Assembly: GCA_905339165.1 (NCBI GenBank)
Contig: CAJPFH010000107.1
Location: 1-43,353 of the forward strand
Source of the DNA: Flavobacteriales bacterium
GTDB lineage: Bacteria > Bacteroidota > Bacteroidia > Flavobacteriales_E > Vicingaceae
Length of the DNA: 43,353 bases
Direction of reading: 5' to 3'
Part shown: positions 25,629 to 29,706 of the stretch, in pieces
How positions within the stretch are numbered: position 1 is the stretch's first letter
Layout of the letters: every line of letters begins with the position of its first letter
The notes under the pieces: model-generated
What the model was told of the DNA's origin: nothing
The model's input: only the letters and a program-made list of their open reading frames with translations
Databases searched by the model: none
Made by a program: the position numbers and the translations under genes

Positions 25629-26864
25629 GTGGCTAAAAAAAATAAACTATATTCATTAAGAGCATTGGCATGGCAAAGGTTTAAAAGAAACAAACCGGCC
25701 ATGTTTTCGCTGCTTGTAATTATTTTAACTGTTATAGTGGCTCTGTTAGGACCCTTTATCAGACCCGATGCCACTCCAAAATCGAACGATCAGAATCTAG
25801 AAATCACACTGAAACAACCCGGATTTTCGCTGCAAATTCTGAAAATAAGAAAAAACAGCTTAAGCAAAGAAACCTCCTTTTTTAACCAATTAATTTGGGG
25901 TATCGAAAGCGAATACAGAACCTACCCTATTTACAGTTACAATTTTGAGGGAACCGATATTGTAGTAGAAAAATATACCGGAGATATGCCTAACAATGGC
26001 GAGGTTATCCGTTTTAATTTGGCCGATGTGGCATACCCTATTGATGCCACCAAACATGCCTTTATTGAAGGAAGCACCATTAATTTTTATTCTTTAGAGG
26101 GCAAACAATACAGCTTGGAAATAGAATCACTAAAAACCGAAGTGATAGAAAATAATATTGAAAATAGAAAATACTATTTAGGAACCGACCGCTATGGAAG
26201 AGATTTTTTAAGTCGTATTATGGCCGGAACCTGGATTTCCTTAACCGTAGGACTTATTTCTGTATTCATTTCCATTATTATAGGCGTTTTAATGGGTGCA
26301 CTGGCAGGGTATTTTAGGGGCTGGATAGATGATGTAATTATGTGGCTCATTAATGTAGTGTGGTCTATTCCCACACTTCTATTAATAATAGCCATTACAT
26401 TGGCCATTGGTAAAGATTTTTGGCAGGTATTTGTAGCTGTAGGTTTAACCATGTGGGTAGAAGTAGCCCGTGTAGTACGCGGGCAGGTGCTTAGTATTCG
26501 CGAAAAAGAATTTGTAGAAGCAGGCCATGCCCTGGGTTTTACCAATTACAGAATTATCTACAGACATATTCTCCCTAATGTAATGGGGCCTGTAGTGGTA
26601 ATTTCGGCAGCCAATTTTGCCGCAGCCATTTTAATTGAAGCAGGGCTTAGCTTTTTAGGTCTGGGGGCCCCCCCCCCCCAAGCTACATGGGGTAAAATAA
26701 TAAGCGAACATAGGGGATATATTTTTACCGGAAGTGGTACAGAATATTTAACTATTATTCCAGGAGTGGCTATTATGATTCTTGTGTTAGCCTTTATATT
26801 CATTGGCAACGGCCTTCGCGATTCGCTCGACTCTAAAACCCAAAAGGATTTTACCAGTCTTTAG
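25629..26864 (+). CDS. OppC/DppC-type ABC transporter permease, lone gene
   Basis: Inner-membrane permease of a peptide/nickel ABC transporter. The GTG start is supported by position (eight bases after the glycosyltransferase stop) and by the OppC-type N terminus. After TM1 (LLVIILTVIVALLGPFIRPD, about residues 30-50) comes a periplasmic segment of about 130 residues, longer than in E. coli OppC. The core has five further helices; the EAA loop for the ATPases is EAGHALGFTNYRIIYRHILP near residue 297, and the family motif LSFLGLGAPPPQATWG is near residues 341-356. In that motif a run of 12 C bases encodes three Pro. No OppB, ATPase or binding protein is adjacent, so partners are elsewhere. Confidence 0.93.
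   Translation: MAKKNKLYSLRALAWQRFKRNKPAMFSLLVIILTVIVALLGPFIRPDATPKSNDQNLEITLKQPGFSLQILKIRKNSLSKETSFFNQLIWGIESEYRTYPIYSYNFEGTDIVVEKYTGDMPNNGEVIRFNLADVAYPIDATKHAFIEGSTINFYSLEGKQYSLEIESLKTEVIENNIENRKYYLGTDRYGRDFLSRIMAGTWISLTVGLISVFISIIIGVLMGALAGYFRGWIDDVIMWLINVVWSIPTLLLIIAITLAIGKDFWQVFVAVGLTMWVEVARVVRGQVLSIREKEFVEAGHALGFTNYRIIYRHILPNVMGPVVVISAANFAAAILIEAGLSFLGLGAPPPQATWGKIISEHRGYIFTGSGTEYLTIIPGVAIMILVLAFIFIGNGLRDSLDSKTQKDFTSL
26668..26679 (+). repeat. 12-C homopolymer tract inside the permease gene
   Basis: Five G followed by twelve C interrupt an otherwise AT-rich sequence and are in frame (G-A-P-P-P-Q). Such a tract is prone to slipped-strand mispairing. See findings. Confidence 0.9.
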
Positions 26865-26866
26865 CA

Positions 26867-26898
26867 TTTGCACAATATCTTTTAAAACAATACTTTTG
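26867..26898 (+). promoter_or_regulatory. -33/-7 promoter of the pyrophosphatase gene
   Basis: TTTG at 26867-26870, a 20-base spacer, then TACTTTTG at 26891-26898: the best match in the window to the Bacteroidetes -33/-7 promoter. It ends 45 bases before the ATG at 26944. Confidence 0.65.
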
Positions 26899-26943: not shown

Positions 26944-29706
26944 ATGGAAAATCTTATTTATCTGCTGCCTATTTTCGGAGTTCTTGCCTTGGTGTACATG
27001 TTCTTTCTTTCTGTTTGGGTAAACAAACAAGATGTAGGGAATGAAAAAATGAAACAGATTTCTACTTATATCCGAGAAGGAGCAATGGCTTTTCTTAAAG
27101 CAGAATACCGTGTATTGGCCGTTTTTGTTGTCATTGCAGGAATATTATTGGGAATTGTTTCGGCTATAGTTCCTACTACACATTGGTTTATCGTAATTGC
27201 TTTTATAATTGGTGCTGTATTTTCTGCCATTGCAGGAAATATAGGTATGCGTATAGCTACAGCAGCCAATGTACGCACCACCCAAGCAGCACGTACCAGT
27301 TTACAAAATGCGTTGAATGTATCTTTTAAAGGAGGTACGGTAATGGGTTTGGGTGTTGCAGGCTTAGCCGTTTTTGGCTTGAGTGTATTGTTTGCTTTTT
27401 TAAGTTCGTGGTTTATTGTTGGTCAATCTGATTTTTATACGGAAATGACCATTGTACTCGAAGCCTTAGCCGGTTTTTCACTGGGAGCAGAATCCATCGC
27501 TCTCTTTGCTCGTGTAGGGGGTGGAATTTACACGAAAGCAGCCGATGTAGGAGCTGATTTAGTTGGAAAAGTAGAAGCCGGCATACCCGAAGATGATCCA
27601 AGAAATCCGGCTACTATTGCCGATAATGTTGGTGATAACGTAGGTGATGTAGCTGGTATGGGTGCCGATTTATTCGGATCTTATGTGGCCACCGTATTAG
27701 CTTCAATGGTGTTAGGCAACTACCTGATTAAAGATTTAAGCAATGCAGCCGGAGAGCAATTTACCGATCATTTTAACGGAATGGGACCTATTTTACTCCC
27801 AATACTTATTGCAGGCTTGGGAATCATTTTTTCTATTGTGGGTACTTTTTTTGTAAAAATTTCCGGAGCAAGCCCTACCGAAAACAATGTGCAGGCAGCC
27901 CTAAACAGAGGAAACTGGATTTCTATTGCATTAACCGCAATCGCTTCCTTTTTCGTTATAAAATGGATGTTGCCCGAAACATTAAACATGGTTTTCTTTG
28001 GTGAAGGAATTAAAGAAGTTTCATCACTTAGAGTATTTTTTGCAGTATTAGTAGGTCTTACAGTAGGAGGTTTTATTTCTTATTTTACCGAATACTATAC
28101 CGGACTAGGCAAAAAGCCTGTATTGGCCATCGTTCAGAAATCTTCTACCGGAGCAGGAACCAATATTATTGCCGGTTTAGCTACCGGAATGATTTCTACG
28201 TTTTATCCCATCTTATTATTTGCTTCGGCTATTTGGGGGGCTTATGCTTTTGCGGGTTTTTATGGTGTTGCCATAGCAGCATCGGCTATGATGGCCACTA
28301 CTGCCATGCAGCTTGCCATTGATGCTTTTGGCCCTATTGCCGATAACGCAGGTGGAATAGCTGAAATGAGTGAGCTTCCTAAAGAAGTACGTACAAAAAC
28401 CGATATTCTAGACTCTGTGGGCAACACCACTGCGGCCATTGGGAAAGGCTTTGCCATTGCCTCTGCAGCACTTACTGCATTAGCCTTGTTTGCAGCGTAT
28501 GTAACATTTACGGGAATAGATGGCATCAATATTTTTAAAGCACCTGTTTTAGCTTGTTTGTTTGTGGGGGGTATGGTGCCTGTGGTTTTCTCTGCATTGG
28601 CTATGAATTCTGTAGGAAAAGCAGCCATGGATATGGTAAAAGAAGTACGGAGGCAGTTTAAAGAAATACCCGGAATTATGGAAGGCTCCAGCAAGCCTGA
28701 GTATGGAAAATGTGTGGAAATTTCTACCAAAGCGGCCCTACGAGAAATGATGTTGCCGGGAGTACTAACCATAGCAATGCCTATTTTAATAGCCTTTTTG
28801 CCCATGTTGTTTGGTTATGAAAGTGCACAAGCGGCCGAGATGTTAGGCGGATACATGGCCGGAGTTACAGTTTCAGGTGTGTTGTGGGCTATATTTCAAA
28901 ATAATGCAGGGGGTGCTTGGGATAATGCCAAAAAATCTTTCGAAGCCGGTGTAATGATTGATGGCCAAATGACCTATAAAGGCTCCGATGCACATAAGGC
29001 AGCTGTAACGGGTGATACTGTTGGAGACCCCTTTAAAGATACTTCGGGCCCTTCTATGAACATTTTAATTAAACTCACTTGCCTGGTTGGGCTTGTTATA
29101 GCTCCCATTTTGGGAGGGCATACATCAGAAAACAAAGAAACGCCTCTTAATGAAATCAAAATAGAAGAAGCAAAAAGCGAATTCGATGGTGTGTATTCTA
29201 TTAATGCGTCAGCATCAGCATTAAATTGGTCGGGAAAAAGTTTTAAAGGAGAACATGTAGGCACAGTAAAATTAACTTCAGGAGGTTTTGAAGTGGCCAA
29301 TGGACAGATTGTGTCGGGAGAGGTTTTGGTAGATATGAAATCTATGGTATGCACCGATATTACAGATGCAAAAGATAATGCAGACTTTATCGAACATATG
29401 GCTTCTGATGATTTTTTTTCTACCGAAAAATTTCCTGTGGCTTCGCTTTCTATTTTAAGTTCAGATAAAAAAGAAAACAATGCCTATTCTTGCAAAGGCA
29501 ATTTAACCATTAAAGAGATTACTAAAACCATAGATTTTGATTTAATCCTTACCTCCGAAGGAAACAACGTAAAAGCAATAGCCAAATTAGAGATAGATAG
29601 AACGTTGTTTGATATTAAATACAAATCGAAAAAATTTGGAGCGTTAGCCGACAATTTTATTTATGATAACTTTACCATTGAAGCGAATTTAATGGCCGGA
29701 AAATAG
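26944..29706 (+). CDS. hppA: Membrane pyrophosphatase (ion pump) fused to a YceI-like domain
   Basis: A 920-aa protein in one frame. Residues 1 to about 722 are a membrane-integral pyrophosphatase with many helices that couples PPi hydrolysis to H+ or Na+ export. It shows [20 protein letters not shown] (201-220), [17 protein letters not shown] (227-243), [10 protein letters not shown] (462-471), [10 protein letters not shown] (493-502) and [14 protein letters not shown] (690-703). The Ala after GNTT points to the K+-dependent subclass; many of these pump Na+, which is inference here. After a charged linker (723-745), residues 746-920 resemble YceI, the lipocalin-like periplasmic polyisoprenoid-binding fold ([20 protein letters not shown], then [15 protein letters not shown], then [16 protein letters not shown]). 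If both ends of the pump are outside the cytoplasm, as known for TmPPase, the YceI domain is periplasmic. Confidence 0.93.

Follow-up and report, generated by a model that had tools for sequence, protein, structure and literature searches.

The window, by which we mean the whole stretch of 43,353 nucleotides analysed here, belongs to the genome of a Flavobacteriales bacterium (G000; 3.16 Mb in 136 contigs, one pump gene found). At positions 26944..29706 of its forward strand lies a frame, uninterrupted over 920 codons, whose 920-aa product joins a membrane pyrophosphatase to a YceI domain. The pyrophosphatase core, residues 13-719 (26980..29100, +), is complete, as had been claimed from the sequence: it matches the Pfam profile H_PPase (PF03030) over positions 1-645 of 645 (E 1.3e-262, 873.6 bits for a cut-off of 29.7), and it is 42% identical to the Vigna radiata pump over the fold. 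A flexible linker follows at residues 725-745 (29116..29178, +), variable among relatives, and then the YceI domain itself at residues 751-916 (29194..29691, +), where the Pfam profile PF04264 is matched over positions 1-148 of 150 (E 2.3e-20, 73.9 bits for a cut-off of 23.7). No Pfam family besides these two was found in the protein at E <= 1. The G+C content is 0.42 for the core, 0.34 for the YceI part and 0.38 for the window.

The fusion is real, and we regard it as confirmed. The same fused layout of 920 aa, 98% identical, is present in the sister genome G001. A stop or frameshift near the junction had been named beforehand as evidence against the fusion; the frame is open there, and the longest homopolymer in the surrounding 200 bases does not exceed 5.

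Upstream of the gene, a promoter-like site of the Bacteroidota type, TTTG-N20-TACTTTTG, is found at 26867..26898 (+). The pattern, which we take to be the Bacteroidota promoter consensus, has 3 matches in the window for 1.87 expected, so that the site is a weak one with its position as the sole argument. In a sigma-70 scan, promoter-like sites were rarer than in shuffled sequence. The neighbouring frame, on the same strand at 25629-26864, encodes 411 aa resembling by eye a permease of the ABC dipeptide type, and ends 80 bases before the fused gene.

Predicted structure, membrane side and ion type

The AlphaFold2 model of the full chain (25 sequences) has a mean pLDDT of 83.2 and 16 long helices by count; 16 is also the number given for a membrane pyrophosphatase in the part of PMC5150537 cited here. 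Its linker is loose, with pLDDT below 50 over residues 725-745, and leads to a barrel spanning residues 749-919. The best Foldseek matches of the full model are solved pumps, with TM-scores by target of 0.89-0.91; ABC transporters also appeared in this search, with poor TM-scores, and were disregarded. Modelled alone (32 sequences), the YceI domain reaches a pLDDT of 90.3, and it matches the folds of BcnA (5ixh; Z 21.6, 1.9 A over 157 residues, Foldseek E 3.5e-11) and the polyisoprenoid-binding protein TT1927b (1wub; Z 21.6, 2.3 A over 163 residues, Foldseek E 3.0e-12). The best match outside the YceI family has a Z of 10.2, and the scores of 8-10 obtained with small outer-membrane barrels were taken to reflect a shared general shape. 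Domain search and predicted fold thus agree on the YceI-like domain that the original prediction had placed behind the linker.

The fused YceI domain is without a signal peptide or lipobox of its own and continues in frame from the last helix of the pump; its free and split relatives have a signal peptide or a lipoprotein-like start. The residues conserved in YceI proteins are retained in the fused copies. Before the last helix of the pump stands a conserved loop of 12 residues, which we take to be part of the cytoplasmic catalytic site of these pumps; one more helix follows, and the C terminus would therefore be in the periplasm. In the Thermotoga pump, both ends lie outside. The YceI barrel should accordingly be periplasmic, the side on which the added domain had been expected: the catalytic loops lie across the membrane from the point where the barrel leaves the last helix, and a lipoprotein-like YceI protein is encoded beside the pump gene in some relatives.

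For the ion type, we used the generic residue numbering on the assumption that R242 is 5.50. In the alignment to the Vigna radiata pump, Glu183 (codon 27490..27492, +) corresponds to Ser235, that is, position 5.43, while G245 and A249 occupy 6.53 and 6.57, with no Glu at either. A Glu at 5.43 together with K+ dependence characterises the H+-pumping Flavobacterium johnsoniae type in the subclass table of PMC6882861. Judged from the alignment, the residues fit this K+-dependent, H+-pumping Glu-5.43 subclass; K+ dependence of the fused pump is only suggested, by a 10-residue motif that it has in common with the Vigna pump, itself K+-dependent. The NCBIfam name 'sodium-translocating pyrophosphatase' was not followed, because the Glu stands at 5.43 and not at 6.53 or 6.57.

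Neither a family I (PF00719) nor a DHHA2 pyrophosphatase was found in G000. A PF00719 protein is present in 28 of the 36 other genomes of the family, the sister genome included, so that the absence of PF00719 from G000 is possibly an assembly gap as well as possibly a real loss, and we do not claim that the fused pump is the sole pyrophosphatase of the cell.

Distribution of the fusion

Our set of relatives comprises 60 genomes, 37 of which (G000-G036) make up the family of the window. A search of related genomes for the fusion had been proposed with the original prediction. A fused pump is present in 34 of these 37 genomes: judged from the tails, 24 are of type A, the YceI type of the window, and 10 are of type B, a more classical YceI. 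In the remaining three, G014 has a plain pump of 749 aa, the match in G010 is cut by a contig end, and no pump match was found in G035 (87% complete).

Profiles spanning the junction were used on a draw from the class, where 58 of 395 genomes are fused, 20 with type A and 38 with type B, without overlap and over 20 family codes; given the type-B cut-off of 1e-55, this count is a lower bound. It leaves out G204, a would-be 21st type A whose pump is in pieces, and it includes G136, a type B with an internal stop. The tails of 50 of the 58 were also read and scored singly, the other 8, all type B, resting on the profile match. Among the genomes with a fused frame is the one-contig, 4.1-Mb G290. 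In a draw from the phylum, type B was found in 0 of 395 genomes at E 1e-50 and type A in 1 of 395 at E 1e-58, which is the window genome itself. Taken literally, this means that the fusion is no general trait of the phylum. Genomes of higher quality seem to be preferred here relative to the class draw: the genomes listed, about 20, all belong to that same class, with a completeness of 100% and almost no contamination.

Among the best 80 named nearest relatives, a YceI tail is fused to the pump in four: L113 and L114 with type A, L118 and L157 with type B. These four come from metagenome or uncultured assemblies, so that no cultured carrier was found among these 80; the tails of L113 and L118 are confirmed by Pfam, and L119, also among the 80, is truncated at a contig end. 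A plasmid search with the protein as query returned pumps only, none covering 80% of the query. We found no description of an H_PPase-YceI fusion among the matches listed in the open-licence PubMed Central literature; we do not assert novelty of publication, and domain databases may list this architecture already.

Tails, split genes and their exchange

The YceI domains are part of a wider collection of tails. On 223 pump cores, we counted 33 type A, 23 type B, 5 OmpA, 3 FKBP, 5 split, 82 Cys-rich, 17 small-module and 55 short tails, with rough labels (at least 4 Cys for the Cys-rich class, a regular expression for the small module). The sample behind these figures is uneven, being made up of relatives, class genomes and the named nearest matches, and it omits tail-only loci, cores shorter than 600 aa and cores with identical last 650 residues. 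The OmpA tail occupies the same C-terminal place as YceI, according to Pfam in L036, L152 and L230 and by motif only in L237 and L238; so does a tail made of FKBP_N and FKBP_C (Pfam in L170 and L266, motif only in L267). Cys-rich tails with KCDMSKCATMTKDECAKMCDSLGCSPEQKEMCLSHYD-like repeats are seen in many Flavobacterium and other Bacteroidia (for example, L115, L120, L122, L124, L218, L247 and L262). No Pfam tail family was found for the five tried (L022, L038, L040, L120 and L262), and the Cys-rich tails are possibly metal-binding. Many pumps of Flavobacteriaceae (L178, L183, L188, L195 and others) are closed by a small VRVEVKNINGKTTGTVTKTVNGKTTTEVFEGTEAEVLAKVEAAK-like module, alone or behind a Cys-rich part.

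In the split state, a type-A YceI gene lies immediately 3' of the pump gene on the same strand. Separate genes in relatives had been set against the fusion by the original prediction: they do exist, at 5 of the 223 loci, all outside the family of the window, and the fusion at the present locus stands. The five split YceI proteins have lipoprotein-like starts by eye (LCAVGC in L131, LAAC in L134, LGGC in L143, LAAC in L171 and LIASC in L197), and in L131, L143 and L171 the stop of the pump gene and the start of the YceI gene overlap in an ATGA. Three of the five are close kin on the core tree, so that few of these cases are independent, and 15 of the 223 loci have less than 900 bases of 3' flank, in which further split cases may be missed. 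Between lipobox and YceI domain, the proteins of L131, L134 and L197 have a stretch containing PCDC.

Two loci deserve mention for irregular ends. In Tenacibaculum aquimarinum, the intact gene is followed, about 1.6 kb further on, by a degraded second copy of the C-terminal end of the pump and its tail (L162:9846-9947), a match of this kind being seen at 1 of 281 loci; this copy may be the trace of a tail duplication or exchange. In L191, from a Flavobacterium metagenome, the pump frame runs out at a contig end with a final helix, MSIVSLVIAPY, that belongs to the other core type; an assembly error is a likelier cause than natural recombination.

How the tails are distributed over the cores was examined with trees. 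On the core tree (FastTree), 13 changes are required for type A and 19 for type B, of which starred branches force at least 11 and at least 13, respectively; gain and loss are not distinguishable in these counts, and the core-tree statistics carry L036 (OmpA by Pfam) and L197 (split) as short tails, both of which are corrected in the tail counts above. In the A-tail tree, 32 of 36 fused A domains form one clade (SH-aLRT 96), which also takes in the split L171 on a long branch and none of the 28 free A domains; the fused domains outside it are L068, L071, L072 and L114. In the B-tail tree, the free B domains, a small sample of 3, are separate from all 40 fused ones.

Pairs within the family of the window illustrate the exchange. 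The cores of L012 (A) and L024 (B) are 93% identical and their tails 38%; for L006 (A) and L018 (B), the figures are 95% and 33%. For pairs in which both members have the same type, the figures are 78% and 67% in L009 and L011 (A), and 85% and 69% in L018 and L021 (B). A Cys-rich tail is borne by L115 from Flavobacterium dankookense, whose core shares 93-95% identity with those of L005, L006, L014, L018 and L020. The tails of L005, L006, L007, L009, L011 and L012 form a clade with support 99; forcing this clade on the cores lowers the log-likelihood by 437 (AU p 6.4e-105). Those six tails sit on unrelated cores and cannot be a clade by core. Since the linker start GGHT(N/D)(D/E)AHAEE is common to A and B members (L009, L012, L021 and L024), the swap point seems, from the sequences, to be inside the linker. 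That this end of the pump works as a platform on which tails are exchanged is a larger finding than the single fusion.

In seven pairs, dN/dS is 0.07-0.25 for the YceI part and 0-0.05 for the core. The YceI part is under purifying selection, and less constrained than the pump.

Role of the tail and known systems

The reading that we favour, and hold to be reasonably probable, is that of a tethered periplasmic barrel, predicted to bind a lipid or an isoprenoid, for which the pump is the anchor, the tail being an exchangeable module. A K+-dependent, proton-pumping pyrophosphatase would be continued, after its last helix, by a flexible linker of about 20-25 residues and a lipocalin-like YceI barrel on the periplasmic side. 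By analogy with YceI proteins of solved structure, the barrel would have as its ligand a long isoprenoid or some other lipid, be it a quinone, a polyprenyl phosphate or an oxidised lipid. The pump would hold the barrel at the inner membrane, replacing the lipid anchor of the separate version seen in some relatives. Because these pumps are homodimers, each would bear two barrels, and pumping probably proceeds as in unfused pumps.

Since two YceI types, OmpA, FKBP and Cys-rich tails interchange on similar cores, an anchoring role is suggested more than a part in pump chemistry, and the envelope-type families (OmpA, FKBP) among the other tails count for the anchored barrel. So does a precedent reported in the part of PMC9113575 considered here: in alpha-proteobacteria, YceI is fused to cytochrome b561 and a linker replaces its signal peptide, other bacteria having the two as separate neighbouring genes, and YceI is linked there to protection from lipid peroxyl radicals. 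The domain and fold matches, the loose linker, the frequency of the fusion in the family and in the class draw, the split genes with their lipoprotein-like starts, the exchange of tails and the purifying selection on the YceI part also speak for the anchored barrel. The absence of the fusion from the phylum draw outside the window genome counts against the anchored barrel. Three further YceI matches lie elsewhere in the window genome, and the fused copy may be redundant. Nor does the pump depend on the tail, since relatives bear unrelated domains instead and G014, from the same family, lacks one.

Could the tail nevertheless act on the pump, a link to a lipid or isoprenoid ligand that the original prediction had raised? 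The ligand state might regulate pumping, or the exiting protons might supply the force by which a ligand, for example a quinone or polyprenyl lipid, is loaded or released on the outer side of the inner membrane. In favour of such functional coupling are the retention of a YceI fusion in 34 of 37 family genomes despite cores of several unrelated lineages and the ATGA-overlapping gene pairs of three relatives; however, unrelated tails occupy the same place on very similar cores, and the linker is loose and variable, so that we consider coupling unlikely. A broader proposal, which we would advance as a speculation with slightly poorer prospects, is a general docking port at the periplasmic end of the pump in Bacteroidia. 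A site at which cassettes recombine (two YceI types, OmpA, FKBP, Cys-rich) might place envelope functions at a source of proton motive force, the work of the tails (lipid loading, folding, wall contact) being coupled to, or tuned by, local proton release. The result of the phylum draw and the looseness and variability of the linker weigh against these bolder readings.

If the chain were instead a polyprotein, it would be cut after the last helix, which would serve as signal sequence, and a free periplasmic YceI would be released. In favour are the predicted looseness of the linker and the many free YceI proteins, with signal peptides, that these genomes encode. However, conservation of the last helix does not depend on the tail and extends to pumps with none, so that the helix was not shaped for cleavage, and the starts of the split versions resemble those of lipoproteins, which are membrane-bound; we therefore judge this scenario improbable. 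The tail might also be a mere passenger, gained by recombination and without a function tied to its place, in keeping with its frequent exchange, its faster evolution than the core and the tailless pump of G014. The dN/dS values of the seven pairs, the conserved YceI residues kept in the fused copies and the recurrence of the same tail class on unrelated cores within one family speak against this, and leave it a small share of our belief. An assembly or sequencing artefact, towards which the metagenome or uncultured origin of the four named fused cases and the lack of any besides the window genome in the cleaner phylum draw might point, is rejected as very improbable, given that there are no stops and no long homopolymer at the junction, that independent genomes agree on the frame (the sister genome, 34 of 37 family genomes and the one-contig G290) and that most fused tails fall in clades apart from free YceI.

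The anchored barrel bears on both partners. Membrane pyrophosphatases are described as compact and their subunit as a single domain in the part of PMC6882861 cited above, and here many lineages of one class bear swapped modules predicted to be periplasmic. YceI is a lipid-binding family whose role is still poorly known, and the fused and split gene pairs offer a direct route to its function at the inner membrane, and to the question of whether cells can use a primary ion pump as an anchor, or regulate it, from the periplasmic side. Were coupling true, the energy of PPi would be tied to envelope lipid handling.

Compared with known systems, the pump resembles the Flavobacterium johnsoniae type: its core is complete and has the catalytic motifs, the model shows 16 long helices, and a Glu stands at 5.43 but at neither 6.53 nor 6.57. 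It differs in bearing an extra domain, predicted to be periplasmic. With the YceI family (TT1927b, 1wub; BcnA, 5ixh; E. coli YceI, 1y0g), the tail shares profile, barrel fold and conserved residues, whereas it is without a signal peptide of its own and anchored to an ion pump. The closest parallel is the LcoA-BcnA chimera, as described in the cited part of PMC9113575: a C-terminal YceI on an inner-membrane protein, a linker for the signal peptide, and separate neighbour genes in other species. In contrast to that chimera, the membrane part is here an H_PPase ion pump and not cytochrome b561, and the tail is also swapped between cores and against unrelated domains.
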